From Mycobacterium florentinum (GTDB taxonomy: Bacteria; Actinomycetota; Actinomycetes; Mycobacteriales; Mycobacteriaceae), in assembly GCF_010730355.1 (NCBI RefSeq), contig NZ_AP022576.1, forward strand, positions 3,968,001 to 4,032,000: a stretch of DNA of 64,000 nucleotides, written 5' to 3'. A program made the position numbers and the translations under genes. The notes under the pieces are model-generated. The model was not told where the DNA came from and did not search any database. It saw only the letters and a list, made by a program, of their open reading frames with translations. Within the stretch, counting starts at the first letter, position 1. Every line of letters starts with the position of its first letter. Of this stretch, positions 4,487 to 48,533 are shown in pieces.

Positions 4487-5872
4487 ATGGCTGATCCACG
4501 ACACGACAAGATGGCCCTCGTTGCTTTCATGCAGGCGGGCAGCACCTCGGTGTACGCGGGCTCATGGCGGCACCCCGCGACCGAACACGGCTACCTGGAC
4601 GCCTCCTACTACGCCAAGATCGGCCGCCAGCTCGAAGAAGGCCGCTTCGACCTGATGTTCTTCGACGATCGCCTGGCAATGCCGGGCGTCTACGGCGGGT
4701 CGGTGGACGACGCGGTGTCCTACGGCGCACGGCCGGTCAAGCTGGACCTCGGCGTCGTGCTCGGCGTGCTGGCCGAGGCCACGTCGCGCATCGGACTCGG
4801 GGCCACCTACTCGACCACGTATTACCAACCGTTCCACGTCGCCCGGACCTTCGCGACACTCGATCACCTGTCGGCCGGGCGGGCCGCCTGGAACGTGGTC
4901 ACGTCGGTCAACGACAGCGAGGCACAGAACTTCGGGGTCAACGCGCACCTGGGCCACGACGAGCGATACGACCGCGCTGACGAATTCATGGACGTGGTGA
5001 CGGGCCTCTGGGACACCTGGGAGGACGACGCGATCCTGCACGACCGGGCGAGCGGACACTATGCGGACCCGGGCAAGGTGCACGAGCTGGGCCATGTGGG
5101 GCAGTACTTCTCCGTTCGTGGACCGCTGACCGTGCCCCGCACCCCGCAGGGCCGGCCGGTCATCATCCAGGCCGGCTCTTCGGGCCGTGGTCGTGAATTC
5201 GCCTCGCGCTGGGCGGAATTGATCTTCACCGGGGATCCGGGCATCGAGGTGGCGCGCAGTCACTATGCGGATCAGAAAGAACGCATTGCCGAGGCCGGGC
5301 GTGATCCTGCCTCGGTACGGATCTGCCCGATGGCCTACGCTGTGGTAGGCGAGTCCGAGGCCCACGCCAAGGAGCGCGAAGCCCTGTTCCTCAACGATCT
5401 GGTTCACCCCATGGCATCGCTGACATTGTTGTCGGAGTTGATGAATTACGACTTCGCGCAACACGATCTGGACGATCCCGTCACCGACGAGCTGATCGCT
5501 TCGTCCTCCGGGATCCGGGGACTGGTGCACAACCTCCGCAACCACATATCTTCTGGGGGCGGCGGACGCCCTGTGACCGTCCGTGATCTGGCGGGTCATC
5601 GCGCGACGCTGCTGCAGGGTCCCCGCTTCGTCGGCACCGGCGAGCAGGTCGCCGATCAGATGGCGGAGTGGTTCGAAAGCCGCGCCTGCGACGGTTTTGT
5701 CCTGGCGGCAACGCATCTGCCCGGCGCATTCGAAGACGTCGTGCGGATGGTGGTTCCGCAGCTACAACGACGGGGGCTGTTCCGCACCGAGTACGAGTCC
5801 TCGACATTGCGGGGACACCTTGGGCTGCAACGGCCCTCGAACGCACACGTGGTTGCCGATGCAAATGCTTGA
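4487..5872 (+). CDS. LLM-class flavin-dependent monooxygenase (NtaA/SnaA/DszA family)
   Basis: The 461-residue TIM-barrel luciferase-like protein matches the NtaA/SnaA/DszA group in length and motifs: an early FMAGSTSVYAGSW-like strand, FFDDRLAMP, the long segment HVARTFATLDHLSAGRAAWNVVTS, and GRPVIIQAGSSGRGREFAS. Members use reduced FMN from a separate reductase to oxygenate sulfones, chelators or xenobiotic amines. No flavin reductase gene is adjacent. The 3' end overlaps the CoA-transferase by 14 bases, so translation is probably coupled. A palindromic operator lies just upstream. The substrate is unknown. Confidence 0.88.
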   Translation: MADPRHDKMALVAFMQAGSTSVYAGSWRHPATEHGYLDASYYAKIGRQLEEGRFDLMFFDDRLAMPGVYGGSVDDAVSYGARPVKLDLGVVLGVLAEATSRIGLGATYSTTYYQPFHVARTFATLDHLSAGRAAWNVVTSVNDSEAQNFGVNAHLGHDERYDRADEFMDVVTGLWDTWEDDAILHDRASGHYADPGKVHELGHVGQYFSVRGPLTVPRTPQGRPVIIQAGSSGRGREFASRWAELIFTGDPGIEVARSHYADQKERIAEAGRDPASVRICPMAYAVVGESEAHAKEREALFLNDLVHPMASLTLLSELMNYDFAQHDLDDPVTDELIASSSGIRGLVHNLRNHISSGGGGRPVTVRDLAGHRATLLQGPRFVGTGEQVADQMAEWFESRACDGFVLAATHLPGAFEDVVRMVVPQLQRRGLFRTEYESSTLRGHLGLQRPSNAHVVADANA

Positions 5873-7049
5873 CGGTGTGCGAGTCCTCGACCTCGCGACC
5901 TTGGCCGCCGCCCCGCTGGTCGCGACCTACCTGGGTGAGTTCGGCGCCGACGTGATCAAGGTCGAAGACCCACGGCATGGCGATCCGATCCGAGGGTGGG
6001 GCAATCAGCGCGAAGACGTCGGGCTGATGTGGAAGTCCTTGTCGCGCAACAAGCGAGCGATCACGCTGGACCTGCGCTGCGCCGAAGGACAGGCGATGGT
6101 GCGTCGGCTGGTCGAGCATGCCGATGTCGCCATTTTCAACACCCGGCCGCAGACGTTGCGCAAATGGGGCCTGGACTACGAGAACCTGCGCGCGGTCAAC
6201 GACCGGATCGTGATGCTGCACATCACGGGATACGGGTTGACCGGGCCGAAGAGCGAACGCCCGGGCTTCGGCACGCTCGGCGAGGCGATGAGCGGGTTCG
6301 CGCACATCACCGGCCAGGCCGGCGGCCCGCCCACGCTGCCGCCCTTCATGCTGGCCGACGGCGTCGCCTCACTGAACGCCACCTACGCGGTGATGATGGC
6401 GCTGTACCACCGCGACGTGCATGGTGCGCCGGGCCAGCTGATCGACGTCAACCTGATCGACCCGCTGGCCCGCCTGCTCGAGCAGACGCTGCTGGGCTAT
6501 GACCAATTGGGCTTGGTCCCCGAGCGGGCCGGAAACCGTTGGGACATTTCGGCGCCGCGCAACACCTACCGCACCGCGGACGGGCGGTGGCTCGCCATGT
6601 CCGGCAGCTCACCCGCGCTGGCGTTGCGGGTGTTTCGCGCGATCGGCCGAGACGACCTGCTGTCGGACCCCGACTTCTCCGACCCGCAGCGGCGGCTGGC
6701 CCGGGCCCGTGAGGTCGACTCCGTGGTCGCGGATTGGGTTGCCACCAAGACTCTTTCGGAGGCGATGCAGACGTTCGAAGCCCACGAGGTCGCCGCGGCC
6801 CCCGTCTACGACATCCGCGATCTGGTCGCCGACGAACAACTGGCCCATCGGGAGGTGTTCATCTCGGTCTCCGATGACCAGCTCGGGGCGATGACGGTGC
6901 AGGCCCCGGTCCCGCGTTTCTCGTCGGCGTCCGGGACGGTCGGCCATCTCGGCCCCGGCCTCGGTGAACACAACGCCGAAGTCTACAGCGAGCTACTCGG
7001 ATTGACCCCCAACGAGATTGACGACCTGCACGCCCGTGGCGTGTTGTGA
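5859..7049 (+). CDS. CaiB/BaiF-family (class III) CoA-transferase
   Basis: This 396-residue protein begins MQMLDGVRVLDLA, the standard class III CoA-transferase N-terminus. It carries GADVIKVEDPRHGDPIR, the conserved LSRNKRAITLDL strand and the catalytic-region aspartate near residue 167 (MLADGVASLNA). The family moves CoA between carboxylic acids, usually succinyl- or acetyl-CoA to a substrate. The start was set at ATG 5859, overlapping the monooxygenase stop; ATG 5865 is possible. Lying between an LLM monooxygenase and a CitE-type lyase, it probably activates an oxygenation product as a CoA ester. Confidence 0.9.
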   Translation: MQMLDGVRVLDLATLAAAPLVATYLGEFGADVIKVEDPRHGDPIRGWGNQREDVGLMWKSLSRNKRAITLDLRCAEGQAMVRRLVEHADVAIFNTRPQTLRKWGLDYENLRAVNDRIVMLHITGYGLTGPKSERPGFGTLGEAMSGFAHITGQAGGPPTLPPFMLADGVASLNATYAVMMALYHRDVHGAPGQLIDVNLIDPLARLLEQTLLGYDQLGLVPERAGNRWDISAPRNTYRTADGRWLAMSGSSPALALRVFRAIGRDDLLSDPDFSDPQRRLARAREVDSVVADWVATKTLSEAMQTFEAHEVAAAPVYDIRDLVADEQLAHREVFISVSDDQLGAMTVQAPVPRFSSASGTVGHLGPGLGEHNAEVYSELLGLTPNEIDDLHARGVL

Positions 7050-7062
7050 CAGAAGGAAACTT

Positions 7063-7971
7063 GTGACTGGTCTGCTCCGTCGTTCCGAACTCGCGGTGCC
7101 CGCGTGCAACGACAACATGTTCGAGAAAGGCGCCAAGTGCGGCGCGGATTTGGTGTTCCTCGACCTCGAGGATGCGACCCCGGCCGGCGCTAAAGTGGAA
7201 TCACGCGCCAAGGTCATCGCTGCACTCAACGACATCGACTGGGGCCGAACCGCACGCGCCATCCGAATCAACGGCCTGGACACCCAGTGGTGTCACGACG
7301 ACGTCATCGACGTCGTCAGCAAGGCCGGTGAGAACCTCGACACCATCATCGTCCCGAAGGCGCGCAAGGCGCGTGATGTCTGGTGGGTAGACGTGCTACT
7401 GACTCAGCTCGAGTCGAAACTTGGTCTTAGTAACCAGATTCGGCTCGAGGTTCTGATCGAGGAAGTGGAAGGCCTCGCCAATGCGGAGGAGATCGCTGCG
7501 GCCAGCCCTCGCCTGGATGCGTTGATCTTCGGGGTCGGCGACTTCTCGTTGTCGCAGGGCGCGCGGGTGGACACCAACTTCGTCCCGCTCGGCGAATACC
7601 CTGGCGAGTTCTGGGCTTACGCGCGCAACAAGGTGATCGTCGCGGCGCGCATCGCCGGCATCGACGCGATCGACGCGCCCTATCCCGACTACCGCGACCT
7701 GTCGGGTTACGAGCGTGACGCGCGGCGCGCGTCGCTGCTCGGCTACACCGGCAAGTGGGCCATCCATCCCGACCAGGTGCCCGTCGCCAACGGTGTCTTC
7801 GCCCCGACCGCCGACGAGATCGCCCGGGCTGAAGCCAATATCGCCGCCTACCGGGAGGCCGAGGCCAAGGGCCGCGGCGCGGTCGGAGTCAACGGTGTGC
7901 TGGTCGACGCCGCCCACGTGAAACAGGCCGAGCAGACGCTGGCACGCGCCGCTCTGATCAAGGGAAACTAG
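7063..7971 (+). CDS. HpcH/HpaI aldolase / CitE-like CoA-ester lyase
   Basis: A 302-residue CitE-type TIM-barrel protein. It shows RRSELAVPACNDNMFEKG, the signature DLVFLDLEDATPAGAKVESR-type strand, the acidic magnesium ligand region LEVLIEEVEGLANAEEI and IFGVGDFSLSQG. Relatives split or form 3-hydroxy- or malyl-CoA-type esters. GTG 7063 is chosen because AGAAGGAA (7051-7058) sits at the right distance; the upstream in-frame start lies inside the CoA-transferase. It follows the CoA-transferase by 13 bases and probably acts on the CoA ester that enzyme makes. Confidence 0.88.
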   Translation: MTGLLRRSELAVPACNDNMFEKGAKCGADLVFLDLEDATPAGAKVESRAKVIAALNDIDWGRTARAIRINGLDTQWCHDDVIDVVSKAGENLDTIIVPKARKARDVWWVDVLLTQLESKLGLSNQIRLEVLIEEVEGLANAEEIAAASPRLDALIFGVGDFSLSQGARVDTNFVPLGEYPGEFWAYARNKVIVAARIAGIDAIDAPYPDYRDLSGYERDARRASLLGYTGKWAIHPDQVPVANGVFAPTADEIARAEANIAAYREAEAKGRGAVGVNGVLVDAAHVKQAEQTLARAALIKGN

Positions 7972-8712: not shown

Positions 8713-9981
8713 ATGCCTCGATTTCCCAAGCCGTCGGAGGGAAGCTGGACGCAGCATTACCCCGAATTGGGCACCGCTCCGGTGTCCTACGAAGACTCCA
8801 TCAGCCCGCGGATCCATGAACTGGAACGGGCTGCGATCTTCAAACGCGCCTGGTTGAATGTTGGCCGCGTCGAACAGATTCCACGCAAGGGTAGCTACTT
8901 CACCAAGGAGCTCAAGGTCGTCAACACCTCAATCATTGTGGTGCGCACGGGATCCGGCGAGGTCAAGGCGTATCACAACATCTGCCGCCATCGCGGCAAC
9001 AAGTTGGTGTGGAACGACATGCCGCTCGAGGAGACCAGCGGGGTGTGCCGGCAGTTCACCTGCAAGTACCACGCCTGGCGGTACGACCTGGACGGCAACC
9101 TGACGTTCGTCCAGCAGGAGGAGGAGTTCTTCGACCTGGACAAGAGCCGCTATGGTCTGGTGGCGGTGCATTGTGAGATGTGGGAAGGCTTTATCTTCGT
9201 CAACTTTGCCAAGCAGCCCGAGCAATCGCTGCGCGAATTCCTGGGGCCGATGGTGACGGCGCTCGAGGGCTACCCGTTCGACAAGCTGACGTCGCGTTTC
9301 TATTACCGCTCGGAGGTCAAGGCGAACTGGAAGCTGTATATGGACGCGTTCCAGGAGTTCTATCACGCGCCGGTGCTACACGCGAACCAGTCGCCGACCG
9401 CATATTCAAAGGCCGCTGCCGAGGCGGGTTTTGAGGCGCCGCACTACCGCCTGGACGGTCCGCACCGGTTGGTCAGTACCTCCGGGGTGCGGGCCTGGGA
9501 GATGCCAGACGAGATGCGCAAGCCGATCGATGACATCTGCCGGAGCGGACTGTTCGGGCCTTGGGATAAGCCGGATCTGGGCGAGATGCCGGCGGGCCTG
9601 AATCCGGCGAAATGCGATCCGTGGGGCCTGGATTCGTTCCAGCTCTTCCCCAACTTCGTGATCCTGTTTTGGGGCCAGGGGTGGTATCTGACCTATCACT
9701 ACTGGCCGACCTCGTACAACAGCCACCTCTTCGAGGGGACGCTGTATTTCCCGCAGCCGCGCACGCCGCGCGACCGCGTTGCCCAGGAACTGGCGGCGGT
9801 GACGTTCAAGGAATTCGGCCTGCAGGATGCCAATACGCTCGAGGCCACCCAGTCGATGATCGAATCCCAAGTGCTCGACGGGTTCCTGCTCTGCGACCAG
9901 GAGATCCTGATCCGCCATCTCCACAAAGAGACCGCGGCCTGGATCGATGAGTACCAGCGCGGCAGCGCGGCTAGCGTGTGA
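8713..9981 (+). CDS. Rieske non-heme iron oxygenase, alpha subunit (first copy)
   Basis: This 422-residue aromatic-ring-hydroxylating-type oxygenase has its Rieske 2Fe-2S ligands visible as C91/H93 (CRHRGN) and C117/H120 (CKYHAW). The catalytic iron histidines are H218 and H223 in QEFYHAPVLH. The residue three before H218, which bridges the Rieske cluster and the mononuclear iron, is glutamate (E215) rather than the usual aspartate, as in carnitine monooxygenase CntA. AGGAGTGCGG provides the RBS. The stop overlaps the start of a 112-residue partner gene by 4 bases. The only electron carrier nearby is the ferredoxin at 12067; no reductase gene is present. The substrate is unknown. Confidence 0.93.
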   Translation: MPRFPKPSEGSWTQHYPELGTAPVSYEDSISPRIHELERAAIFKRAWLNVGRVEQIPRKGSYFTKELKVVNTSIIVVRTGSGEVKAYHNICRHRGNKLVWNDMPLEETSGVCRQFTCKYHAWRYDLDGNLTFVQQEEEFFDLDKSRYGLVAVHCEMWEGFIFVNFAKQPEQSLREFLGPMVTALEGYPFDKLTSRFYYRSEVKANWKLYMDAFQEFYHAPVLHANQSPTAYSKAAAEAGFEAPHYRLDGPHRLVSTSGVRAWEMPDEMRKPIDDICRSGLFGPWDKPDLGEMPAGLNPAKCDPWGLDSFQLFPNFVILFWGQGWYLTYHYWPTSYNSHLFEGTLYFPQPRTPRDRVAQELAAVTFKEFGLQDANTLEATQSMIESQVLDGFLLCDQEILIRHLHKETAAWIDEYQRGSAASV

Positions 9982-10316
9982 CGACGATGTCCCCAATGCT
10001 GCCAACCGAATTCGCTGACCTGGAGCCCTTCGCGCAGTGGTGCCTGCCCACCGAACCGGAGCGCTATGCCAAGCGGCTGTCGAGTTCGATGACCGAGATG
10101 AAGGCCTTCTACGACGCGATCACGCCGCGCGCCGAGGAAGCCCTGACCTATTGCGACAAGTTCCCCCTCGACGAATTGCCGGACGACGTCCTCAATCTCA
10201 TGCATCTGCTGTATTCGATGATCATGGTGTCGTTTCCGGTGGAGTGTTGGAAGCAGCCCCGCGTGCCCGACTCCGGTGCGTCCACGCTGGACTGCGTGTC
10301 CGAGCCGGTTCCGTGA
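9978..10316 (+). CDS. Small Rieske-associated protein (first copy), unknown family
   Basis: A 112-residue acidic, mainly helical protein begins GTG 9978 (ATG 9987 possible), overlapping the Rieske stop as GTGA. Shared blocks with the proteins at 14420 and 46013 are FADLEPF, a Trp-x-Leu-x-Thr near the start, FYDA-x2-PR-x-EEA-x-x-Y, LP-D-x4-L-x-L-YS-x-I-x-V, and a final EP. All three lie directly after a Rieske oxygenase gene. The protein is much shorter than classical SnoaL-fold beta subunits (about 160-180 residues) and I see no such fold signature. It may be an accessory or stabilising subunit. Confidence 0.85.
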   Translation: MTTMSPMLPTEFADLEPFAQWCLPTEPERYAKRLSSSMTEMKAFYDAITPRAEEALTYCDKFPLDELPDDVLNLMHLLYSMIMVSFPVECWKQPRVPDSGASTLDCVSEPVP

Positions 10317-11560
10317 CCACCGTCCTGCGCGCCGCCCGCTGGGCTGACGTGGACACCGGACAAATTCACTCGCCGGCGGTCGTGCTGATCGACGGCAACC
10401 GCATCACCACGATCAATCCCGAAGGGCCGGAACCGGATTCGGCGACGGTGATCGACCTCGGGGACGTCACGCTGTTGCCGGGCCTGATGGACATGGAACT
10501 CAACCTGCTCATCGGCGGCCCCGGTGGACCCGAGGGCCTGCCCTCCCCGATGCACGGCGTTCAAGATGATCCCGCCTACCGGACTTTGCGTGGCGCCGTG
10601 AACGCGCGCACCACGCTGGAGGCCGGGTTCACCACGGTGCGCAACCTCGGGCTGATGGTCAAGACCGGCGGCTATCTGCTCGACGTCGCGCTGCAGCGTG
10701 CCATCGACCAGGGCTGGCACGCCGGTCCTCGCATCTATCCCGCCGGGCACGCCGTGACACCCTACGGCGGGCATCTCGATCCCACGGTGTTCCAGCGGCT
10801 GGCGCCGGGCGTCATGCCGCTGTCGGTCGCCGAGGGCATCGCCAACGGGGTGCCCGACGTAATCGCGTGTGTTCGCTACCAGATTCGCCACGGCGCCAAG
10901 CTGATCAAGGTGTCGGCGTCGGGCGGTGTCATGTCGCACAGCACCGCCCCGGGCGCCCAGCAGTATTCCGATGCGGAATTCGCCGCCATCGCCGACGAAG
11001 CCCATCGCGCCGGGGTGCGAGTGGCCGCACACGCCGTCGGCGACTCGGCGATCCGAGCGTGTATCCGCGCCGGGATCGACTGCATCGAACACGGATTTCT
11101 GGCCACCGACGAGACGATTCAGATGATGGTCGACCACGGCACCTTCCTCGTCTCCACGACCTATCTGACCGAAGCGATGGCAATCGACCGCATTGCACCG
11201 GAGCTGCGCAAAAAGGCCGAGGAGGTATTCCCGCGAGCAAAAGCGATGCTGCCCAAGGCGATTGCCGCCGGCGTCCGCATCGCCTGCGGCTCCGACGCAC
11301 CGGCGATTCCACACGGCCAGAACGCCAAGGAGATCCGCGCCCTGGTGGACCGCGGCATGACGCCCATGCAAGCCATCAGGGCCGCCACGGTCGTCGCGGC
11401 CGAACTCATCGAGGCCGACCACGAGCTGGGCCGCCTCGCCCCCGGGTACCTCGCCGACATCATCGCGGTGCCCGGTGATCCGTCGCGCGACATCGCCAGC
11501 ACACTTGAGGTCTCCTTTGTGATGAAGGACGGCCAGATCCACAAGACGCCGACGACCTGA
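10313..11560 (+). CDS. Amidohydrolase-superfamily protein with altered metal motif
   Basis: A 415-residue protein of the imidazolonepropionase/prolidase-like amidohydrolase type. It keeps the candidate carbamylated lysine region KLIKVSASGG, histidines in VAAHAVG and IEHG, and the catalytic aspartate in CGSDAP. The first metal motif, normally PGLIDxHxH, reads PGLMDMELN here: Glu62 and Asn64 replace both histidines. It may bind metal differently, perhaps with a single site. GTG 10313 overlaps the previous stop by 4 bases, so it is translationally coupled in the Rieske operon. A hydrolytic role on an amide or lactone intermediate is inferred. Confidence 0.85.
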   Translation: MTTVLRAARWADVDTGQIHSPAVVLIDGNRITTINPEGPEPDSATVIDLGDVTLLPGLMDMELNLLIGGPGGPEGLPSPMHGVQDDPAYRTLRGAVNARTTLEAGFTTVRNLGLMVKTGGYLLDVALQRAIDQGWHAGPRIYPAGHAVTPYGGHLDPTVFQRLAPGVMPLSVAEGIANGVPDVIACVRYQIRHGAKLIKVSASGGVMSHSTAPGAQQYSDAEFAAIADEAHRAGVRVAAHAVGDSAIRACIRAGIDCIEHGFLATDETIQMMVDHGTFLVSTTYLTEAMAIDRIAPELRKKAEEVFPRAKAMLPKAIAAGVRIACGSDAPAIPHGQNAKEIRALVDRGMTPMQAIRAATVVAAELIEADHELGRLAPGYLADIIAVPGDPSRDIASTLEVSFVMKDGQIHKTPTT

Positions 11561-11578
11561 CAGCGAGCGGAGACCGGT

Positions 11579-12034
11579 ATGGAACTCACCGAAAACATCC
11601 TGTGGCTACTCAAGCAGGCCTTCTACTTCTCGCTGACCACCGTGAACGACGCGATCAGTACGCACGGGGTGAGCACGGCGCAGATCGGTGTGCTGCGTCA
11701 GCTCTCCAACGAACCCGGACTGTCCGGTGCCGACCTGGCCCGGCGCCTGCTGATCAGTCCGCAAGGCGTGCAGTTGGCTCTGACGGCGCTCGAGCGGCGC
11801 GGTCTGGTCGAACGCAAGCAGGACCCGCAGCACAAACGCGTTTTGAAGGCATACCTGACCGATCAGGGACGACAGGTGGTGGCCGAGGTGCTCAGTGACG
11901 CCGTGGCCGCGCACGACAGGGTGTTCGGCGTGCTCAGCACCGAGGAGCAGGAGACGCTGCGCGAATTGCTGGGCCGGGTGGTGGAAAAGGGCACCGGGCA
12001 CGAGCTCACCGAGCGCAATATATCCAGTACTTGA
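11579..12034 (+). CDS. MarR-family transcriptional regulator
   Basis: The 151-residue MarR protein has a winged helix in its centre (STAQIGVLRQLSNEPGLSGA, then RLLISPQGVQLALTALERRG, wing HKRVLKAYLTD) and dimerisation helices at both ends. It sits within the catabolic operon, 18 bases after the amidohydrolase. Two copies of a CMAGTACTTG element lie at its 3' end and just downstream. It therefore probably autoregulates the second half of the operon (ferredoxin onward) in response to a small aromatic or acidic ligand. Confidence 0.9.
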   Translation: MELTENILWLLKQAFYFSLTTVNDAISTHGVSTAQIGVLRQLSNEPGLSGADLARRLLISPQGVQLALTALERRGLVERKQDPQHKRVLKAYLTDQGRQVVAEVLSDAVAAHDRVFGVLSTEEQETLRELLGRVVEKGTGHELTERNISST

Positions 12035-12053
12035 GATGAATAGCAAGTACTTG
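12024..12053. promoter_or_regulatory. Tandem MarR-type operator
   Basis: CAAGTACTTG (12044-12053) is a perfect 10-base palindrome. A near-identical CCAGTACTTG (12024-12033) lies 20 bases upstream, two helical turns away on the same face. The first copy overlaps the end of the MarR gene and the second lies 13 bases before the ferredoxin ATG. This is a likely internal promoter/operator controlled by the MarR protein. Confidence 0.6.
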
Positions 12054-12066
12054 ATACTCTGCCTTC

Positions 12067-12393
12067 ATGCAGGTCTCCCGCGCGCCCTCGTATGCCGGAC
12101 CTGCCGACGCCGGTGTCGCCACCGAGAAAGTGACCATCGAGCTGGATCGGTCGACCACCACGGTGGCCTACTCGGCGGGGGACACCTTGCTGCAGACCGC
12201 GCGGATGGCGGGCTTGTCTCCGCCGTCGTCCTGCGAAGTCGGTTCGTGCGGAACATGTATGGCCCGGTTGACCGAGGGATGCGCCCGGATGCTCAACAAC
12301 GATGCGCTTGAAGACGACGAGGTGGCGCAGGGCTGGGTGCTGACCTGTCAGGCCATGCCGACGAGCCCGACGGTGCGGGTGGTTTACGAATGA
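12067..12393 (+). CDS. Plant-type [2Fe-2S] ferredoxin
   Basis: A 108-residue ferredoxin with cluster ligands C56, C61 and C64 (CEVGSCGTC) and C94 (VLTCQAM), the CX4CX2C...C pattern of plant-type ferredoxins. It probably carries electrons to the two Rieske oxygenases of the operon. There is no fused or adjacent flavin/NADH reductase, so a housekeeping reductase must supply it. Its stop overlaps the SDR start as ATGA. Another in-frame start at V18 (GTCGCC is not a start codon) was not supported, so ATG 12067 is used. Confidence 0.92.
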   Translation: MQVSRAPSYAGPADAGVATEKVTIELDRSTTTVAYSAGDTLLQTARMAGLSPPSSCEVGSCGTCMARLTEGCARMLNNDALEDDEVAQGWVLTCQAMPTSPTVRVVYE

Positions 12394-13133
12394 GCAGGGT
12401 TGCGGTGGTGACCGGCGGCGCCTCGGGTATGGGTGAGGCGACCTGTCACGAGCTGGGCCGGCGCGGCCTGAGCGTCGCCGTCCTCGATATCAATGAGCAA
12501 GCGGCGCAACGTGTTACCGAAGATCTGCGCGCGGACGGGACCGCGGCAATCGGTGTCGGCGCCGACGTCACCGACCGGGCGGCCGTCGAGCAGGCGTTCG
12601 CCAAGGTCCGCAGTGAGTTGGGTCCGGTGTCGGTCCTGGTGACCAGCGCGGGCATGTTCGGGTTCTCCCCGTTCGCCGAGATCACGCCGGAGTCGTGGTC
12701 GAAGATCATCGACGTCAACCTGACCGGTACTTTTCACTGCTGCCAGGTCGCGCTGCCGGACATGGTCGCCGCGAAATGGGGCAGGATCGTGATGATTTCG
12801 TCGTCCAGCGCCCAGCGGGGCTCGCCGTTTGCCGCGCACTACGCGGCGTCCAAGGGCGCGGTCATCACCCTGACCAAGTCGTTGGCCCGCGAGTACGCAC
12901 CACACGGGATCACCGTGAACAACATTCCGCCCTCGGGCATCGAAACCCCGATGCAGCACCAGGCGCAGGCCGCGGGATACCTGAAATCCAACGAGGAGAT
13001 CGCCGGCAACATCCCGCTGGGGCATTTGGGTACCGGAGCCGACATCGCCGCGGCGGTCGGGTTCCTGGTCTCCGAGGAGGCCGGTTTCATCACCGGCCAG
13101 GTGTTGGGTGTGAACGGCGGAGCGGTGATGTGA
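12390..13133 (+). CDS. SDR-family NAD(P)-dependent oxidoreductase
   Basis: A 247-residue classical short-chain dehydrogenase. It has the cofactor motif TGGASGMG at residues 8-15, an NAD-favouring aspartate after beta-2 (VAVLDIN), the active-site YAASK tetrad and the C-terminal FITGQVLGVNGG. It overlaps the ferredoxin by 4 bases and precedes the second Rieske gene by 21 bases. It probably oxidises an alcohol or cis-diol made by a Rieske oxygenase. A close paralogue is at 49686. Confidence 0.92.
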   Translation: MSRVAVVTGGASGMGEATCHELGRRGLSVAVLDINEQAAQRVTEDLRADGTAAIGVGADVTDRAAVEQAFAKVRSELGPVSVLVTSAGMFGFSPFAEITPESWSKIIDVNLTGTFHCCQVALPDMVAAKWGRIVMISSSSAQRGSPFAAHYAASKGAVITLTKSLAREYAPHGITVNNIPPSGIETPMQHQAQAAGYLKSNEEIAGNIPLGHLGTGADIAAAVGFLVSEEAGFITGQVLGVNGGAVM

Positions 13134-13154
13134 CTGCCACACGAGGAGGTTCGG

Positions 13155-14423
13155 ATGACGCGCGAGGGTAGGCCCCCGGAAGGCTCCTGGACCGAGCATT
13201 ACCCCGAATTGGGCACCGGCGACATCTCTTTCGCCGACTCCACCTCGAAGGAGTTCTTCGAGGCCGAACGCGAAGCGGTATTCAAACGGGCTTGGCTCAA
13301 CGTGGCCCGGGTCGAAGAGCTACCGCGTATCGGCAGCTACGTCACCAAGGAGATCGAGGTTGCCCGGGTTTCGGTCATCCTGGTCAAGGGGCGCGACGAA
13401 CGAATTCGCGCCTTCTACAACGTCTGCCGGCACCGCGGAAACAAGTTGGTGTGGAACGACTTTCCCAACGAGCCGACTCACGGTACGTGTCGCCAGTTCA
13501 CCTGCAAGTACCACGGCTGGCGCTACGATCTGGACGGCACGCTGAAATTCGTGCAGCAGGAATCGGAGTTCTTCGACCTCGACACCGCCGACTACGGCCT
13601 GAGTCCGGTGCACTGTGACATCTGGAACGGCTTCATTTTCATCAACTTTGATGCCGAGCCCCGGCAGAGCCTGCGCGAGTTCCTGGGCCCGATGGTCACC
13701 GGCCTGGACGGCTACCCCTTCGACAAATTGACCGAGCGATACGAGTGGGTCGCGCATAACAACAGCAACTGGAAGATTTTCGCCGACGCGTTTCAGGAGT
13801 ACTACCACGTGCCGTCGCTGCACCCACAACAGGTGCCGCCGGAGGTGCGTGACCCCAAAGCCGGATTCACTTGCGGCCATTTCCAACTCGACGGTCCGCA
13901 CCGGTTGGTGTCGACGGCGGGGCGACGGCGCTGGCTGCTGCCGCAGGAGTACATGTATCCGATCGAGCGGGCCACCCAGAGTGGGCTCGTCGGCCCGTGG
14001 CGCACCCCGGACATCGGCGAACTGCCCGCCGGGCTCAACCCGGGCGGCATCGAGCCCTGGGGGATCAGTAATTTCCAGATCTTCCCCAACACCGAAATAT
14101 TGATCTACGGCGGCTGGTATCTGCTGTACCGGTACTGGCCCACCTCCCACAACACCCACCGGTTCGAGGCCTACACGTACTTCCACCCGGCGCGCAGCGT
14201 GCGGGAGCGCATCGAACACGAAGTCGCCGCGGTGGTGCTCAAGGAGTTCGCGCTGCAAGACGCGGGCATGCTCGGCGGCACGCAGGCCGCGCTCGAATAC
14301 GGCATCGTCGACGAGTTTCCGCTCAACGACCAGGAGATCCTGGTCCGCCATCTGCACAAGACGGTGGTGGACTGGGTCGAGGCCTACCGCCGCGAAAATA
14401 GCCCAGCGCGGGCGGGAGTGTGA
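13155..14423 (+). CDS. Rieske non-heme iron oxygenase, alpha subunit (second copy)
   Basis: A 422-residue paralogue of the protein at 8713 with nearly collinear motifs: Rieske ligands C91/H93 and C117/H120, iron histidines H218/H223 in QEYYHVPSLH, and again glutamate (E215) at the bridging position. GAGGAGG-type sequence upstream (13142-13149) gives an RBS. The final GTG-TGA overlaps the next small gene. Having two complete oxygenase alpha subunits in one operon suggests two successive hydroxylations or demethylations, not an alpha/beta pair. Confidence 0.93.
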   Translation: MTREGRPPEGSWTEHYPELGTGDISFADSTSKEFFEAEREAVFKRAWLNVARVEELPRIGSYVTKEIEVARVSVILVKGRDERIRAFYNVCRHRGNKLVWNDFPNEPTHGTCRQFTCKYHGWRYDLDGTLKFVQQESEFFDLDTADYGLSPVHCDIWNGFIFINFDAEPRQSLREFLGPMVTGLDGYPFDKLTERYEWVAHNNSNWKIFADAFQEYYHVPSLHPQQVPPEVRDPKAGFTCGHFQLDGPHRLVSTAGRRRWLLPQEYMYPIERATQSGLVGPWRTPDIGELPAGLNPGGIEPWGISNFQIFPNTEILIYGGWYLLYRYWPTSHNTHRFEAYTYFHPARSVRERIEHEVAAVVLKEFALQDAGMLGGTQAALEYGIVDEFPLNDQEILVRHLHKTVVDWVEAYRRENSPARAGV

Positions 14424-14761
14424 CCATGTCGGATCCTTTGCTGCCCAACGGATTCGCCGAGCTGGAAAGCTACGCGCCAACCTGGTGCCTGGCCACCGAA
14501 ACCGACCGCTGGAACGCGCGGATGGCCAGCACCATGGCCCAAATGCACGACTTCTATGACGCGTTCTTCCCGCGGCTCGAAGAGGCCATCGACTACTGCG
14601 ACAAGTTCACGCTCGAGGACCTGCCCGACGACGCACTCAACCTTCTTCACATGATCTATTCACTGATCATGGTCGCGATGGCCGTCGAGGTCATGCACCA
14701 GCCCGTCCCGACGGATGCGGCCGACGCGGTCATGATCCGCACCGTCGAGCCCATGCCCTGA
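14420..14761 (+). CDS. Small Rieske-associated protein (second copy)
   Basis: The 113-residue protein begins GTG 14420 in a GTGA overlap with the Rieske stop; ATG 14426 is an alternative start. It aligns over its whole length with the products at 9978 and 46013: FAELESY, W-x-LAT, FYDAFFPRLEEAIDYCDKF, LPDDALNLLHMIYSLIMV and a terminal VEPMP. The function is unknown. The fixed position directly after a Rieske alpha gene suggests a dedicated partner. Confidence 0.85.
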   Translation: MTMSDPLLPNGFAELESYAPTWCLATETDRWNARMASTMAQMHDFYDAFFPRLEEAIDYCDKFTLEDLPDDALNLLHMIYSLIMVAMAVEVMHQPVPTDAADAVMIRTVEPMP

Positions 14762-14794: not shown

Positions 14795-15640
14795 ATGAGT
14801 CTGCTCACCATCACCAAGCTCAGCGACTCCGTCGGCGCCGAAGTCACCGGCCTGGATCCCGCCCACCTGGCCGCCGACGACCCGGTCGGTGAAACCATCC
14901 TGGATGCGTTGGAGGACAACGGTGTTCTGGTCTTCCGTGGGCTGCATCTCGACCCCGAGGCCCAGGTCGCGTTCTGTCACCGCCTCGGCGCCATCGATTA
15001 CTCCTCGGACGGTCATCATCCCGTCGCCGGCATCTACCCGGTCACGCTGGACAAATCGAAGAACTCCTCGGCGGCCTATCTGAAGGCGACGTTCGACTGG
15101 CATATCGACGGCTGCACGCCCACCGGCGACGACTACCCGCAAAAGGCCACCGTCCTGTCCGCCAAACAGGTGGCCGAGCGGGGCGGCGAAACCGAATTCG
15201 CGTCTTCCTACGCCGCCTACGACGCGCTGACCGGCGACGAAAAAGACCGGTACGGCGCGTTGCGTGTGGTGCACTCGCTGGAGGCCTCCCAGCGGCGGAT
15301 CACCCCCAACCCCACTCCGAAGCAGTTGGCACAGTGGCGGTCCCGTCGCACCCACGAACACCCCCTGGTGTGGACGCACCGCAGCGGCCGTAAGTCGTTG
15401 GTGCTGGGGGCATCTGCCGACTACGTGGTGGGCATGGACCTCGACGAAGGCCGCGCATTGCTCACCGACCTGCTCGATCGGGCCACGGTGCCCGACAGGG
15501 TCTATAGCCACAACTGGTCGGTCGGTGACACCGTCATCTGGGATAACCGCGGTGTGCTGCACCGCGCGGCTCCCTACGACCCGGACTCACAGCGTGAAAT
15601 GCTGCGCACGACCGTGCTGGGTGATGAGCCGATCCAGTAG
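14795..15640 (+). CDS. TauD/TfdA-family 2-oxoglutarate/Fe(II) dioxygenase
   Basis: This 281-residue protein keeps the iron facial triad as H103-x-D105 (DWHIDG) and H256 (VLHRAAP), with the 2-oxoglutarate-binding arginine R267 eleven residues later. The family hydroxylates or cleaves small acids such as taurine, phenoxyacetates or alpha-ketoacids. AAGAAAGGA (14780-14788) is the RBS. The next ATG starts immediately after its stop. It is a third type of oxygenase in this operon, after the two Rieske enzymes. The substrate is unknown. Confidence 0.92.
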   Translation: MSLLTITKLSDSVGAEVTGLDPAHLAADDPVGETILDALEDNGVLVFRGLHLDPEAQVAFCHRLGAIDYSSDGHHPVAGIYPVTLDKSKNSSAAYLKATFDWHIDGCTPTGDDYPQKATVLSAKQVAERGGETEFASSYAAYDALTGDEKDRYGALRVVHSLEASQRRITPNPTPKQLAQWRSRRTHEHPLVWTHRSGRKSLVLGASADYVVGMDLDEGRALLTDLLDRATVPDRVYSHNWSVGDTVIWDNRGVLHRAAPYDPDSQREMLRTTVLGDEPIQ

Positions 15641-16186
15641 ATGGCCGACAGACACCCGGTGCGGCTGACGCCACTGCCGGCCGGCGAATGGGACGATCGC
15701 AGCCGCCGCGCAATTGCCTCCCTGATCCCCGCCGAGCGGGCCAACCCCACGGGAGCCGGCAATATCCTGTCCACCCTGGTGCGCCATCCCGATCTGACGC
15801 GGGCGTATCTGCCGTTCAATACCTACCTGCTCAACGGCTCCACGCTGTCGCCGCGGGTACGTGAGGTGGCCCTCTTGCGGGTGGTGCACCGGCGCAACTG
15901 CGACTACCTGTGGTCGCATCACCTCCCGATCGCCCACCGGGCGGGCTTGAGCGCCGAGGAGACCGACGGCATTCGCGACGGGCATCTTGCCGCCCACGCC
16001 GACCAGTCGGTGCTGGCCGCGGTGGACGACCTGGTGGACACCGGCACCGTCTCGACACCGGTGTGGGACGAGTTGGGCTGCCACTTCACCGACCCCCAAC
16101 GGATGGACCTGGTGTTCACCATCGGGGGCTATTGCCTGCTGGCCATGGCGGTCAACGCCTTTGGCGTAGAAGATGAGGAACTGTGA
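15641..16186 (+). CDS. Carboxymuconolactone-decarboxylase-like / AhpD-fold protein
   Basis: A 181-residue CMD-domain protein. The core is TLSPRVREVALLRVVHRRNCDYLWSHHLP in which the usual CxxC redox pair is reduced to a single cysteine (NCDY) followed by HH, so a peroxidase function is unlikely. It starts directly after the dioxygenase stop and its end overlaps the acyl-CoA dehydrogenase start. A decarboxylase, isomerase or hydrolase role in the pathway is plausible but not shown. Confidence 0.82.
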   Translation: MADRHPVRLTPLPAGEWDDRSRRAIASLIPAERANPTGAGNILSTLVRHPDLTRAYLPFNTYLLNGSTLSPRVREVALLRVVHRRNCDYLWSHHLPIAHRAGLSAEETDGIRDGHLAAHADQSVLAAVDDLVDTGTVSTPVWDELGCHFTDPQRMDLVFTIGGYCLLAMAVNAFGVEDEEL

Positions 16187-17322
16187 CACCGTCGTCGTCA
16201 GAGACCGAGCTGTTCCTTGCCACCGCCCGTGCGTTTCTGGATCAGCACGCGACGCTCGCCCAGCAGCGAGCGCTGCACGCCGAAGACCGGCCCGTCGACC
16301 CCAAGTGGTGGAAGCAGGCAGCAGAATTGGGCTGGGCCGGCTTGCTGGTGCCCGAGGATCTCGGCGGCGGAAACGTATCCGGCAGTGGGCTGCACGACCT
16401 GGCGGCCATCGCCGAACTGACCGGGCACACAGTCGCGCCGGGACCGCTGCATCCGGTGAGCACCGTGCTGGCCGGGCTCGTCGATGCCGACAACCACGCC
16501 GATCACGCCGAAACCATCCAGGCACTGGCCTCGGGCGAGTCGGTGGCGACCTGGGCGGTCGACGAACCCGGCCGCTCGTTCGACCCGTCGACGCCCACGC
16601 TCACCGCGACCGCCACCGCGCGGGGCTGTCGCCTCGACGGCGTCAAGGACCGGGTTGAGGCGGGCGCGCAAGCCGACCTGCTCCTGGTCACCGCCCGAGC
16701 CGAAGACGGCGTGCGCCAGTTCCTGATCCCCACCGGCGCTACCGGTGTGACGGTGCGCCCCCAGCGCTGCGTCGATCTGGTAAAGCGGTATGCCCGAATC
16801 GAATTCGACGGTGTTGTCGTCGACGACTCGGCCCGGGTGGGCTCGGTCGCCCAGACCCAAGCCCTGATCGACCGGCAGAGCCAGGTGGCCATGCTGCTGC
16901 AGTGCGCCGAGACCGTCGGAATCCTCGACACCGTGCTCGCGCTGACGATCGACTGGTCTCGCGACCGTTACAGCTTCGGCCGGCCCTTGGGGTCCTATCA
17001 GGCGATCAAGCATCGGCTGGCGGACATGACGATGTGGCTGCACGCGAGCCGCGGCATCACCGCCCGCGCGGTCGACCGGGCGGCCGCTCGCGCCGGTGAT
17101 GCCGCGCTCTGGGTCAGCGCGGCCAAGTCCTACCTCGGCGAGCATGCCGGGCCGCTGGTGCAGGATTGCGTGCAGCTGCACGGGGGCATCGGCGTCACCT
17201 GGGAACACGATCTGCACTTGTTCCTGCGGCGAATCACGCTGTACCGCTGTCTATTCGGCACACCGAGCGAGCATCATCAGGCCATCTACCGGCACGTCAG
17301 GAACGAGGGGCCGGCCGCATGA
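16183..17322 (+). CDS. Acyl-CoA dehydrogenase, first of a pair
   Basis: A 379-residue acyl-CoA dehydrogenase-like protein, GTG start overlapping the previous stop by 4 bases. It has the N-terminal helical region (WKQAAELGWAGLLVPEDLGG), a reduced middle domain and the C-terminal helices with FGRPLGSYQAIKHRLADM and LHGGIGVTWEHDLHLFLRR. Its middle domain is divergent, as in the partner subunits of heteromeric mycobacterial FadE pairs (alpha2beta2). The second subunit gene overlaps its 3' end. It probably carries out an alpha,beta-dehydrogenation of the CoA-linked degradation product. Confidence 0.9.
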   Translation: MTPSSSETELFLATARAFLDQHATLAQQRALHAEDRPVDPKWWKQAAELGWAGLLVPEDLGGGNVSGSGLHDLAAIAELTGHTVAPGPLHPVSTVLAGLVDADNHADHAETIQALASGESVATWAVDEPGRSFDPSTPTLTATATARGCRLDGVKDRVEAGAQADLLLVTARAEDGVRQFLIPTGATGVTVRPQRCVDLVKRYARIEFDGVVVDDSARVGSVAQTQALIDRQSQVAMLLQCAETVGILDTVLALTIDWSRDRYSFGRPLGSYQAIKHRLADMTMWLHASRGITARAVDRAAARAGDAALWVSAAKSYLGEHAGPLVQDCVQLHGGIGVTWEHDLHLFLRRITLYRCLFGTPSEHHQAIYRHVRNEGPAA

Positions 17323-18555: not shown

Positions 18556-18972
18556 TTAGGCCGTGCAACAGGCTTGGTCGGGTTCGTCGGTGCCGGGCCC
18601 AAAGGTGTCCGAGTCGGCCAGCACGGTGTAGACCTCCCAGCGTTCACCACTGGCTCCGGTGACCCAAACTTTGTCCTGTGCCGCAAAGCAGCAGGTGGTG
18701 TTGAGTTCTTCCTCGGTGAAGAGACCTTCGTCGGTGAGCCGGTTGATCTCGGCGTGCACTGTGTCGCTGTCCGGCACTTCGACGCCGAGGTGGTTGAGAG
18801 TGCCGCCGTGGCCGGGGTTCTCGATCAGCACGAGCTTGAGCGGGGGTTGGGTGATCGCGAAATTGGCGTAGCCCGGTTTGACCTTGCCGGGCTCGGCGTC
18901 GAAAAGCTTGGAGTAGAAGGCAATTGCCTCGTCCAGATCGTCGACGTTAAGGGCTAGCTGCACACGCGACAT
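18556..18972 (-). CDS. cadI: CadI/ArsI-type vicinal-oxygen-chelate protein
   Basis: A 138-residue glyoxalase-fold protein closely like mycobacterial CadI: MSRVQLALNVDDL, PGYANFAI, PLKLVL, GTLNHLGVEV and KVWVTG. The vicinal pair C94-C95 (TTCCFA) and candidate metal ligands Q5, H61 and E113 match the layout of ArsI C-As lyases, which split trivalent organoarsenicals. It also ends with a second CC. In M. tuberculosis cadI is induced by cadmium and lies in an arsenic cluster. Here it is the last gene of arsR-acr3-arsC-cadI. Confidence 0.93.
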   Translation of the reverse strand: MSRVQLALNVDDLDEAIAFYSKLFDAEPGKVKPGYANFAITQPPLKLVLIENPGHGGTLNHLGVEVPDSDTVHAEINRLTDEGLFTEEELNTTCCFAAQDKVWVTGASGERWEVYTVLADSDTFGPGTDEPDQACCTA

Positions 18973-18996
18973 GGTGGTTCCTTTCTTCGGGGGCAG

Positions 18997-19413
18997 TTAT
19001 GCGGTTGTGAAGGTTGGCAAGAGTTCGGTGATCAGCGCCTCGACACGGCGGGCTACGTCGTCGCGGACGGCCCGCACGGTTTCCAGGGATTGGCCGGCGG
19101 GATCAGGCAGCTTCCAGTCGCGGTAGGACACTCCACGAAAGTACGGGCAGGTGTCACCGCAGCCCATGGTGATCACGACGTCGCTGGACTGCACTGCGTC
19201 GCCGGTCAGGAGCTTGGGAGTCTCGGCGGTGATGTCGATGCCGAGTTCGGACATCGCCGTGATGACCGCGGGGTTCAGGCGATCGGCGGGTTCGGTTCCC
19301 GCGGAACGCACTTCGATCCGGTCCCCGGCCAGTTGCAGCAGCAGCGCCGCGGCCATTTGGGAGCGGCCGGCATTGTGCACACACACGAATAGGACACTGG
19401 GGCGCTCAGCCAT
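18997..19413 (-). CDS. arsC: Arsenate reductase, low-molecular-weight phosphatase type
   Basis: A 138-residue protein starting ATG 19413 (MAERPSVLFVC). The P-loop C11-x5-R17 (CVHNAGRS) and the acidic loop YRDWKLPDPAGQ are those of LMW-PTP-like arsenate reductases. Later cysteines in MGCGDTCPYF could serve the thiol relay. The enzyme reduces arsenate to arsenite for export by the adjacent Acr3. Its start overlaps the 3' end of acr3 by 8 bases. Confidence 0.93.
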   Translation of the reverse strand: MAERPSVLFVCVHNAGRSQMAAALLLQLAGDRIEVRSAGTEPADRLNPAVITAMSELGIDITAETPKLLTGDAVQSSDVVITMGCGDTCPYFRGVSYRDWKLPDPAGQSLETVRAVRDDVARRVEALITELLPTFTTA

Positions 19414-46012: not shown

Positions 46013-46339
46013 TCACACGGCCGGTTCGGCAACCATGTCGAAGAACGCCGCACCGGAGTCGGGGATGCGGTTCTGCTTGAACACGTTGACGGCGTAAGAG
46101 ACCAGGATCATCGAATACAGCAGGTGTAGCAGCCGCTCGGCGTCCTCGGGTAATTCGTTGATGTCGAGGCCGTTCAGGTAGGCGATCGCTTCCTCGGCTC
46201 TCGGGGCTATGGCGTCGTAGAACCTGACGAGGTCGTCGTAGGGCTTCGACAGCCGCGCGTCGTAGCGTTGCGCGCGGGTCGGCAGTGCCCAATCGGCGAC
46301 AAACGGTTCGAGATCGGCGAAGCCGTTGGGCAGTGTCAT
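46013..46339 (-). CDS. Small Rieske-associated protein (third copy)
   Basis: A 108-residue protein starting in an ATGA overlap with the Rieske stop. It matches the copies at 9978 and 14420 along its full length: FADLEPF, W-x-LPT, RFYDAIAPRAEEAIAYLNG, LPEDAERLLHLLYSMILV and VAEPAV. Its presence in a third, separately regulated operon, again right after a Rieske alpha gene, makes chance linkage unlikely. The function is unknown. Confidence 0.85.
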   Translation of the reverse strand: MTLPNGFADLEPFVADWALPTRAQRYDARLSKPYDDLVRFYDAIAPRAEEAIAYLNGLDINELPEDAERLLHLLYSMILVSYAVNVFKQNRIPDSGAAFFDMVAEPAV

Positions 46340-47640
46340 GACGACTCCCCGGATCGGTAGGCGTCGACCGTGTCACGGATGACCGTGTGAAACTGGCGGA
46401 TGAGCAGCTCCTGGTCGGACAAGTGAAAGGTGTTCTGCGCCCGCGTCTTCAGCGCGGAGTGCGTCGCTTCGATGGTGTTCACATCCTGCATCGCGAACTC
46501 GATCGTGCTGTCGACCACCAATTCCTGGGCCAGCCGGTCCCGCGCGTTTTCCGGTGGGACGAAATACATGTCGATCTCGTAGATGTGCGAATCGACCGTC
46601 TCCGGCCAGTACGTGTAGGTGATGTAGTAGCCGCGCGCCCAGATCTGGATCGAAATGTTCGGAAAGACCCAGAATTGGTCGTTACCCCAGGACGCGATGT
46701 TGCCGCGGTTGAGGAAATCGGCACCGTCGTTATCCAGCCCGATGTCGGGAAAATCGTCGGGACCGAAAAGCCCGGCGCGAAACAGCTTGTAAACCCAACG
46801 CTGGTCTTGGCGGGCCGGTCCCGCGGTGCCTGGGTCGCGCGGTGGCAGCGGCGGCGGCCCGGGCACCGAGGTCAGCATGTGCGGCCGGAACAGTTCGTAG
46901 TGGTAGGAGTCGACGGGCGGCACCATCTTCTCGGCTTTGGAAACGTCGGGATCGATGAAGCGGCCATGCACGTACGGCGGGTGATACCACTCGCACACCG
47001 AGTCGACGGCCAACTTCCAGTTGCCCTTGATCCGGGTAGCGAACCCGTAACGCTGCGTCATCTTCTCGAACGGATACGACTCGATGCTCAACAGGCCGTC
47101 GCCCAGGAAACTGCGCAGCGGCAACGGATCCTGCGCGAGGTTGACGAAGATGAAACCCGCCCACACCTCGCAGTGCACCGGCGGCATGCCCAGGCTGCTC
47201 TTGTCGAGGTCGAAGAATTCCTCCTCGTTGGTGATGTGGTTGACCTTGCCGTCCAGGCCGTAGCGCCATCCGTGGTACTTGCAGGAGAACGCGCGACAGG
47301 TGCCGGACGATTCCTTGCCGGGGTGTTCCTGCCAGACGACCTTGTTGCCGCGGTGGGCGCACACGTTGTGGAACGCATGCACGGTGTCGTTCAGGTCGCG
47401 CGCGATCACGATCGAGGCGAGGCGGCCGGGCAGGTCGCGAGTGAAATACGAGCCCTTGCGAGGCAGGCGTTCAATGCGGCCGACGCACAACCAGTTTCGC
47501 TCGAAGACGGCCTTGCGTTCGGCGGTGAAGAACTCTTCGGAGATCGAGTCCTCGTAGTTGACCGGGCCGGTTCCCAATTCGGGGTAGTCGGTGGTGAACT
47601 TGCCACGCCCGGTGGAGAGTCGTTGTTGGATGCTGGTCAC
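46336..47640 (-). CDS. Rieske non-heme iron oxygenase, alpha subunit (third copy)
   Basis: A 434-residue oxygenase starting GTG 47640, overlapping the crotonase stop as GTGA. Rieske ligands are C94/H96 (CAHRGN) and C120/H123 (CKYHGW). The iron histidines are H220/H225 (EWYHPPYVH), with glutamate E217 at the bridging position. It is more divergent than the other two copies. It probably hydroxylates an early intermediate of the pathway served by the adjacent oxocamphor-hydrolase-like enzyme. An electron-transfer partner is not encoded nearby. Confidence 0.92.
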   Translation of the reverse strand: MTSIQQRLSTGRGKFTTDYPELGTGPVNYEDSISEEFFTAERKAVFERNWLCVGRIERLPRKGSYFTRDLPGRLASIVIARDLNDTVHAFHNVCAHRGNKVVWQEHPGKESSGTCRAFSCKYHGWRYGLDGKVNHITNEEEFFDLDKSSLGMPPVHCEVWAGFIFVNLAQDPLPLRSFLGDGLLSIESYPFEKMTQRYGFATRIKGNWKLAVDSVCEWYHPPYVHGRFIDPDVSKAEKMVPPVDSYHYELFRPHMLTSVPGPPPLPPRDPGTAGPARQDQRWVYKLFRAGLFGPDDFPDIGLDNDGADFLNRGNIASWGNDQFWVFPNISIQIWARGYYITYTYWPETVDSHIYEIDMYFVPPENARDRLAQELVVDSTIEFAMQDVNTIEATHSALKTRAQNTFHLSDQELLIRQFHTVIRDTVDAYRSGESS

Positions 47641-48533
47641 AAGGGGACTCCTTCGCTGTGCTGACCGCCGTTTGCCGTTGTGGACCAAGGCTCTTGGTCC
47701 CATGGCCGGTCCAGCGGCGCCATCTCGCCGCCGAAGGGGAAGAACACGCGCTGGGCGTAGGTCTCGCGGCCCAAGCCGTGGCCGAGTTCGTTGACGAAGG
47801 CTCGCTTGAGCGGGTTGGTGAACAGCTGTCGCGTGTACCGCAGGGTCAGCGGCGGTCGCTTGATCAGTTCACGGGCATGCTCCCAGGCTCGGTCGAGCAG
47901 CTTGTCCTTGGGCAGCACCTCGTTGACGACGCCCCACTCCTTGGCCTCCTGCGCGCTGAGCTTCTGACCCGTGAGCAGGAAGTAGCGCGCGCGGTTGTGC
48001 CCGGCGAGCACACTCCAGATCACGTGCTGACCGTCGCCGGGCACCTGGCCGCGCGGGAAGTGGGAGGCGTCCTGGAAGTAGGCGTCCTCGGAGGCCAGCA
48101 CGATGTCGCCCATGATCGGCACCTCGGAGTGCATGTTGCACGGACCATTGACCGCGCTGATCATCGGAACGTCGACGTCGAGCACATTGAAGATGAGATG
48201 CCTGGCATACCAAGCTTTCTCGTCGAGCTTATGCGTCCCGCGGTCGTTGGGCATGGCCTGATAAATGGGCTGCTCGGGCGGTTCGCCGTTGGGCAGGCGA
48301 CCCCAGTTGGCGTTGTAGTTCTCGCCGGTGCCGGTGTGGATGAGCACCTTGATCTCACGATCGCCCGCGATGTCGGCGAACGCGTCCGACATCTCGTCGT
48401 GTGCCTTCCAGCTCCACACCAGGCTGTCACCGTCGGTGTGGCACTGCATGAACAGGATTCCGTCGTCGGTGAGTTCGAACCGGTAGTTGGCATAGCTGTT
48501 CTGGTACTCGGCAAATCGCGTCCGCTTGGCCAT
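47637..48533 (-). CDS. Crotonase-family 6-oxocamphor-hydrolase-like beta-diketone hydrolase
   Basis: A 298-residue crotonase whose sequence follows Rhodococcus 6-oxocamphor hydrolase: HTDGDSLVWSWKAHDEM, VPMISAVNGP, SHFPRGQVPGDGQHVIW and RARYFLLTGQKLSAQEA. The catalytic residues reported for that enzyme (H122, H145, D154, E244) align with H135, H158, D167 and E257 here at exactly the same spacings. Such enzymes open beta-diketone rings by retro-Claisen cleavage without CoA. It heads the operon that includes the third Rieske pair. The large palindrome 48567-48602 precedes it. Confidence 0.85.
   Translation of the reverse strand: MAKRTRFAEYQNSYANYRFELTDDGILFMQCHTDGDSLVWSWKAHDEMSDAFADIAGDREIKVLIHTGTGENYNANWGRLPNGEPPEQPIYQAMPNDRGTHKLDEKAWYARHLIFNVLDVDVPMISAVNGPCNMHSEVPIMGDIVLASEDAYFQDASHFPRGQVPGDGQHVIWSVLAGHNRARYFLLTGQKLSAQEAKEWGVVNEVLPKDKLLDRAWEHARELIKRPPLTLRYTRQLFTNPLKRAFVNELGHGLGRETYAQRVFFPFGGEMAPLDRPWDQEPWSTTANGGQHSEGVPL

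Follow-up and report, generated by a model that had tools for sequence, protein, structure and literature searches.

A predicted helical protein family encoded beside one lineage of Rieske oxygenase alpha subunits in Mycobacterium florentinum and other bacteria

Three genes for the catalytic alpha subunit of Rieske oxygenases are each paired with a gene for a small, predicted helical protein in a stretch of 64,000 nucleotides of the Mycobacterium florentinum genome (contig NZ_AP022576.1, positions 3,968,001 to 4,032,000; hereafter the window). This small protein, called here the partner, belongs to a family, so far without name or description, that goes with a single lineage of Rieske oxygenases, and we favour, with modest confidence, the view that the family is a dedicated, non-catalytic helical subunit of that lineage; a dedicated chaperone is our second choice. 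An earlier note on this DNA had pointed to the three pairs, and much of its description is borne out by the present analysis: the small proteins (108–113 residues) are homologous over their whole length, each small gene starts in a 4-base overlap with the stop of its alpha gene (GTGA, GTGA and ATGA), and the third pair (46013-46339 and 46336-47631) is located on the minus strand. Partners 2 and 3 are 49% and 56% identical to partner 1, with which they align end to end, and alphas 2 and 3 are 58% and 46% identical to alpha 1. The recurrence of three pairs is correct for the window, whereas the genome total is four, a further alpha/partner pair being encoded elsewhere. As for the claim that pairs 1 and 2 share one operon, the amidohydrolase, MarR regulator, ferredoxin and short-chain dehydrogenase/reductase (SDR) genes between them are on the same strand with short gaps, so that a single operon is plausible from the gene layout; the transcript itself was not seen.

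The genome contains 14 matches to PF00848, the catalytic domain, and each of the four partner copies adjoins one of the 14. Two of the ten unpartnered alphas precede a canonical PF00866 beta gene, these being the only two PF00866 matches of the genome, while the remaining eight have neither a helical partner nor a PF00866 beta. Three arrangements are therefore in use in one and the same cell: alpha by itself, alpha plus a SnoaL-type beta, and alpha plus the helical protein.

The partner is not peculiar to the window: its family runs to thousands of proteins. A profile built from the three window partners retrieved 7293 homologues at E ≤ 0.001 (7554 candidates), a number that excludes chance. 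Linkage was surveyed in 168 loci holding 203 partner copies, 202 of which adjoin a Rieske alpha; with duplicates removed, 171 of 172 distinct copies are beside an alpha (168 after it and 3 before it, with 1 alone). The reversed order is that of L103, L110 and the second copy of L108. A 4-base frame overlap is present in 94 of the 168 pairs with the alpha upstream. Of 516 loci from a scan of genome contigs, the 80 best, almost all of them mycobacterial, were taken, and in 80 of 80 the partner is beside an alpha; on plasmids the alpha adjoins the small gene in 12 of the 13 regions examined (of 20 records). No fused alpha-partner gene was found among the frames of the 168 loci. One partnered alpha (L112, 4726-5971) is split by its annotation into a gene for the Rieske part and another for the catalytic part, reflecting either a broken gene or an annotation effect.

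The reverse search was carried out with a profile of 20 partnered alphas against 396 genomes of the phylum, four candidates being scored per genome. Among the alpha matches listed, 34 scored at least 531 bits and 6 scored 242 bits or less; a small gene lies at most 200 bases from the alpha in 34/34 of the former and in 0/6 of the latter. When all candidates of four genomes were scored, 17 of 17 alphas at or above 543 bits were partnered, as compared to none of the 32 at or below 207.5 bits, and those 17 alphas account for all 17 small genes of the four genomes, including one unmatched in the four-candidate search. A plasmid alpha search (22 records) yielded six further regions: the alphas of L213, L214 and L215 (312–430 bits) are partnered by small genes that had escaped tblastn, two distant alphas (228 and 233 bits) are without a partner, and the sixth alpha is the unpartnered, IS6100-flanked fragment of L218.

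The partnered alphas form one clade, both when 20 of them are compared with 10 unpartnered alphas from the window's own genome (support 99/98) and when 23 are compared with the nine nearest unpartnered alphas available (support 100/99), in trees that sample few unpartnered alphas and in which certain inner forks and long branches are poorly settled. Furthermore, alpha and partner distances are correlated over 117 non-redundant pairs (r = 0.96; 0 of 999 permutations as high, the top value being 0.22), part of which is explained by common descent alone. If each protein is typed by its nearest window or genome copy, alpha and partner agree in 152 of 164 pairs. Between types 1 and 2, which many genomes carry in tandem, no swap is seen (97 and 46 agreeing pairs). 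Four copies held to their own alphas, a single origin, translation coupling and the fact that neither protein is lost alone argue for a lasting complex and not for a shared helper.

None of the three window partners matches Pfam, and the one match returned by NCBIfam, with E 0.17 and 10.6 bits where the cut-off is 326, is at the level of chance. When 105 members were scanned singly, the best Pfam E was 0.022 and the best NCBIfam E 0.005, scattered among unrelated families, as chance predicts for so many scans; neither PF00866 nor a SnoaL family is among the 10 weak Pfam families listed for these members. The predicted fold consists of four helices and zero strands, with a predicted local distance difference test (pLDDT) score of 88.7 for what is a model and not a solved structure, in agreement with the helical look attributed earlier to these proteins. 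Sequence searches against solved structures listed five matches with E values no higher than 10, the best being 0.14, and these were regarded as chance; Foldseek/VIA-align gave no convincing PDB fold neighbour of the partner model, no viral structure model matched the partner at E ≤ 0.001, and PHROGs matched none of the three window partners. A SnoaL-type identity, which the earlier note had already doubted, was rejected: hidden Markov model scans of the three window proteins and the 105 members gave no SnoaL match, and the prediction is all-helical, unlike the alpha+beta cone with its curved sheet that characterises such subunits. A diverged SnoaL-type beta would explain why the partner sits after its alpha as beta genes do; we give this practically no weight, considering that none of the 105 members matches PF00866 or SnoaL, that the predicted structure is strand-free, and that the true PF00866 genes of the genome are elsewhere, next to two unpartnered alphas.

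Residues P9, W21, R29 and R33 of the partner are invariant in the 105 members and E89 is nearly so. No metal or cofactor motif was recognised in the partner, and its cysteines are partly conserved, none being invariant; for these reasons the partner was rejected as an electron carrier. Source databases label the partners hypothetical, and some UniRef entries (e.g., P0003, P0063, P0160, P0255) name them Xaa-Pro dipeptidase. This name is probably wrong for proteins of about 110 residues and may have been borrowed from the amidohydrolase gene that is often next in line. Among the papers listed by full-text searches of open PubMed Central, subscription papers and preprints being outside this scope, none deals with a helical partner of Rieske alphas, and the available parts of five reports on indole and auxin clusters (PMC9613470, PMC11373566, PMC11676955, PMC12538310, PMC9871250) mention no such protein adjoining a Rieske alpha. 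A relation of the family to IacB, the hypothetical protein (about 120 residues) that iac clusters encode, is conceivable.

Regarding its spread, within the genus 48 of 60 genomes carry the partner, frequently with three or four copies each; within the phylum 13 of 396 do (7 of 296 with the three-sequence profile). A Streptomyces-type query found 919 homologues at E up to 10 and a mainly proteobacterial profile 711, sets which may overlap with each other and with the 7293 above. Plasmid records come from Sphingomonas, Novosphingobium, Sphingobium, Acinetobacter, Cupriavidus, Burkholderia, Variovorax, Azospirillum, Paroceanicella and Rhodococcus, and Binatia and Desulfurellaceae metagenome-assembled genomes occur among the source names of the homologues. 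Profile A3 (14 rows) matches profile A5 (12 rows, 11 of them proteobacterial) with 99.95% probability and E 1.6e-37, so that the actinobacterial and proteobacterial halves are one family; A3 against A5 is the independent test, and A6 against A5 is not independent, since A6 contains proteins found via A5.

The three window alphas carry the Rieske (PF00355) and Ring_hydroxyl_A (PF00848) domains, and the partnered alphas have the CXH...CXXH cluster ligands and the iron site of two histidines and one aspartate. C91, H93, C117 and H120 (Rieske cluster) and H218, H223 and D372 (iron), whose roles are assigned by analogy with the family, are invariant in 20 partnered alphas. The bridging acid, three residues before the first iron histidine, is E215, a glutamate in place of the usual aspartate; it is nearly invariant in A7, and the alpha of L106 has aspartate at this position. 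Other residues follow the presence of the partner: E359 and R401 are found in 23 of 23 partnered alphas as compared to 1 of 9 and 0 of 9 unpartnered ones, and F43 is fixed in partnered alphas where 9 of 9 of the nearest unpartnered alphas have tryptophan. In the alpha model, itself a poor one, E359 and R401 lie in or beside C-terminal helices, and they could contact R29, R33 and E89 of the partner.

If the partner is a subunit, each copy would be made together with its own alpha and would bind it stoichiometrically. By analogy, it would fill the role of a SnoaL-type beta, holding the alpha trimer and shaping electron-donor docking or the substrate entrance, with a contact site possibly in the C-terminal alpha helices around E359 and R401. 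What is observed is that the genes adjoin and their frames overlap, that the partnered alphas fall in a single clade, that the two proteins diverge in step, that the fold is predicted to be helical and that no metal or cofactor motif is recognised; binding to alpha, stoichiometry, site and structural role are what we infer for the partner.

Several points weigh against a subunit. E359 and R401 may pair with each other or bind substrate, and the alpha model has a mean pLDDT of 52.8 (31 rows, mostly alike), which makes it unusable for docking or fold search. The type differs between alpha and partner in 12 of 164 pairs, chiefly distant rows near no type. Two genes are unpaired, the partner copy of L102 and the alpha fragment of L218 (338 bits), both beside IS6100. 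In L102 (pISP4) the small gene is flanked by IS6100 copies, with linC and an EthD gene next to it. On a related plasmid, pMI1 (L232), the small gene and an alpha without its N-terminal part are about 3.7 kb apart, either side of IS6100, so that a former adjacency broken by this element is likely; pISP4 and pMI1 are plasmids of lindane-degrading Sphingomonads. Five proteobacterial plasmid operons have a SnoaL/NTF2-type gene after the pair (L101, SnoaL_4 by Pfam; L104, L106, L107 and L108, by annotation), and the partner is therefore no simple beta substitute everywhere; no SnoaL gene was found among the 17 neighbouring genes scanned around the window pairs. Finally, a dedicated chaperone predicts the same gene order and co-divergence.

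Such a chaperone of assembly or maturation would bind nascent alpha, aid trimer assembly or the loading of the Rieske cluster or iron, and then leave. The small size of the partner, its predicted helices and the lack of a recognised cofactor motif suit this role, overlapping frames couple the synthesis of the two proteins, and, as several operons encode a SnoaL/NTF2-type protein alongside it, the partner need not be a beta. We nevertheless consider it rather unlikely, because four copies per genome, each kept to its own alpha type, are more subunit-like than a shared chaperone would be, and because 10 of the 14 Rieske alphas of the same genome manage without a partner. The proposal of the earlier note, an accessory subunit or a chaperone, fits these results and is partly supported by them; they do not tell the two apart.

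Regulatory proteins tune multicomponent di-iron monooxygenases, and by analogy the partner could be a coupling or effector protein that transiently binds the finished oxygenase and adjusts its electron transfer or the gating of its substrate. That the partner occurs strictly with alpha and diverges along with it suits this role, no prosthetic group would be needed, and ferredoxins are encoded in the operons; one such gene lies between pairs 1 and 2 and is a candidate electron donor of the oxygenase. We hold an effector to be improbable, none being described for Rieske oxygenases in the accessible parts of a 2025 review (PMC12445004).

Another possibility is that the partner is a separate pathway enzyme acting on the oxygenase product. 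A trio of alpha, partner and amidohydrolase (PF01979) is seen at genome copies 1 and 4 (L004, 265-1491) and for 79 of 114 partners in L020-L099, and this amidohydrolase may be the next pathway step. Elsewhere the neighbours are unlike, including CoA transferases, indole-monooxygenase type genes, cupins and 2,5-dihydroxypyridine dioxygenase. Invariant polar R29 and R33 and nearly invariant E89 could be catalytic, yet the partner stays with its own alpha across these unlike neighbourhoods, where a product enzyme should part from it more often, and we regard a product enzyme as very improbable. In L101, an Acinetobacter plasmid, a partnered alpha is found among styrene/indole monooxygenase, flavin reductase, acetamidase/formamidase and ferredoxin genes, a neighbourhood that suggests an indole-type pathway.

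Table 1. Genes of the three alpha/partner pairs and their named neighbours in the window
Feature	Coordinates	Strand	Remarks
Rieske oxygenase alpha 1, 422 aa	8713..9981	+	PF00355 + PF00848 over Pfam cut-off
Helical partner 1 (predicted), 112 aa	9978..10316	+	GTG start within GTGA, 4-base overlap with alpha 1
Amidohydrolase	10313..11560	+	PF01979; start overlaps partner 1 stop by 4 bases
Plant-type 2Fe-2S ferredoxin	12067..12393	+	PF00111
Rieske oxygenase alpha 2, 422 aa	13155..14423	+	PF00355 + PF00848 over Pfam cut-off
Helical partner 2 (predicted), 113 aa	14420..14761	+	GTG start within GTGA, 4-base overlap with alpha 2
Helical partner 3 (predicted), 108 aa	46013..46339	-	ATG start within ATGA, 4-base overlap with alpha 3
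Rieske oxygenase alpha 3, 431 aa as aligned	46336..47631	-	PF00355 + PF00848 over Pfam cut-off

Partner 1 has an alternative ATG start at 9987, and the start of alpha 3 is uncertain (47631 or 47703, the open frame extending to an ATG at 47703). The genes flanking pairs 1 and 2 (4487-7971 and 14795-17322) encode a luciferase-like monooxygenase, a CoA transferase, an HpcH/HpaI lyase, a TauD dioxygenase, a carboxymuconolactone decarboxylase and an acyl-CoA dehydrogenase, and appear to form a catabolic island. At 18556-20512, on the minus strand, a glyoxalase-like small protein, an arsenate-reductase-like phosphatase and an Acr3-like transporter have, by eye, the look of an arsenic set.

For bacteria, Rieske oxygenases are a main way of opening aromatic and steroid-like compounds. 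They are sought after as biocatalysts, and what is cloned is usually alpha, by itself or together with a SnoaL beta. Should this whole clade depend on a third type of protein, annotated as hypothetical or as Xaa-Pro dipeptidase, alphas cloned alone would seem inactive, and if the helical subunit is obligatory, enzymes of the clade expressed without it would fail or misbehave. The data suggest that this oxygenase branch has a previously undescribed type of subunit, belonging to a family of thousands of members without a name. Tentatively, we propose that the pairs may represent a further Rieske architecture, that is, alpha with an obligatory helical subunit in Actinobacteria, Proteobacteria and some metagenomic phyla, and alpha with both the helical protein and a SnoaL-type beta in some Proteobacteria.

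Among known systems, LigA (PF07746) is the small helical subunit of the LigAB ring-opening dioxygenases and likewise the partner of a larger oxygenase. It differs in its catalytic partner, and the window partners have no Pfam match, LigA included; hhalign to a single LigA-type sequence, a weak test, gave 0.4% probability. The alpha3-beta3 Rieske enzymes share with the window pairs a catalytic alpha carrying both family domains and a small partner gene. Their beta, as far as the available parts of two reports go, is structural and part of the docking site for the Rieske-type ferredoxin (PMC9361823, PMC12445004), and has the SnoaL fold (PF00866), in contrast to the partner of about 110 residues, predicted to be helical and without a PF00866 match. 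The quaternary types listed in the accessible sections of the review, alpha3, alpha3-beta3, alpha3-alpha'3 and alpha3-alpha3, belong to the same superfamily, and none of them has a helical small subunit (PMC12445004). The solved alphas nearest by sequence are CntA (carnitine monooxygenase) and phthalate 3,4-dioxygenase, and the best NCBIfam match of the window alphas is GbcA (glycine betaine monooxygenase), at 130, 120.7 and 109 bits, far under the equivalog cut-off of 670. CntA is an alpha3 enzyme according to the same sections (PMC12445004); compared with the alpha3 enzymes CntA and GbcA, the window alphas stand apart by having a partner gene.

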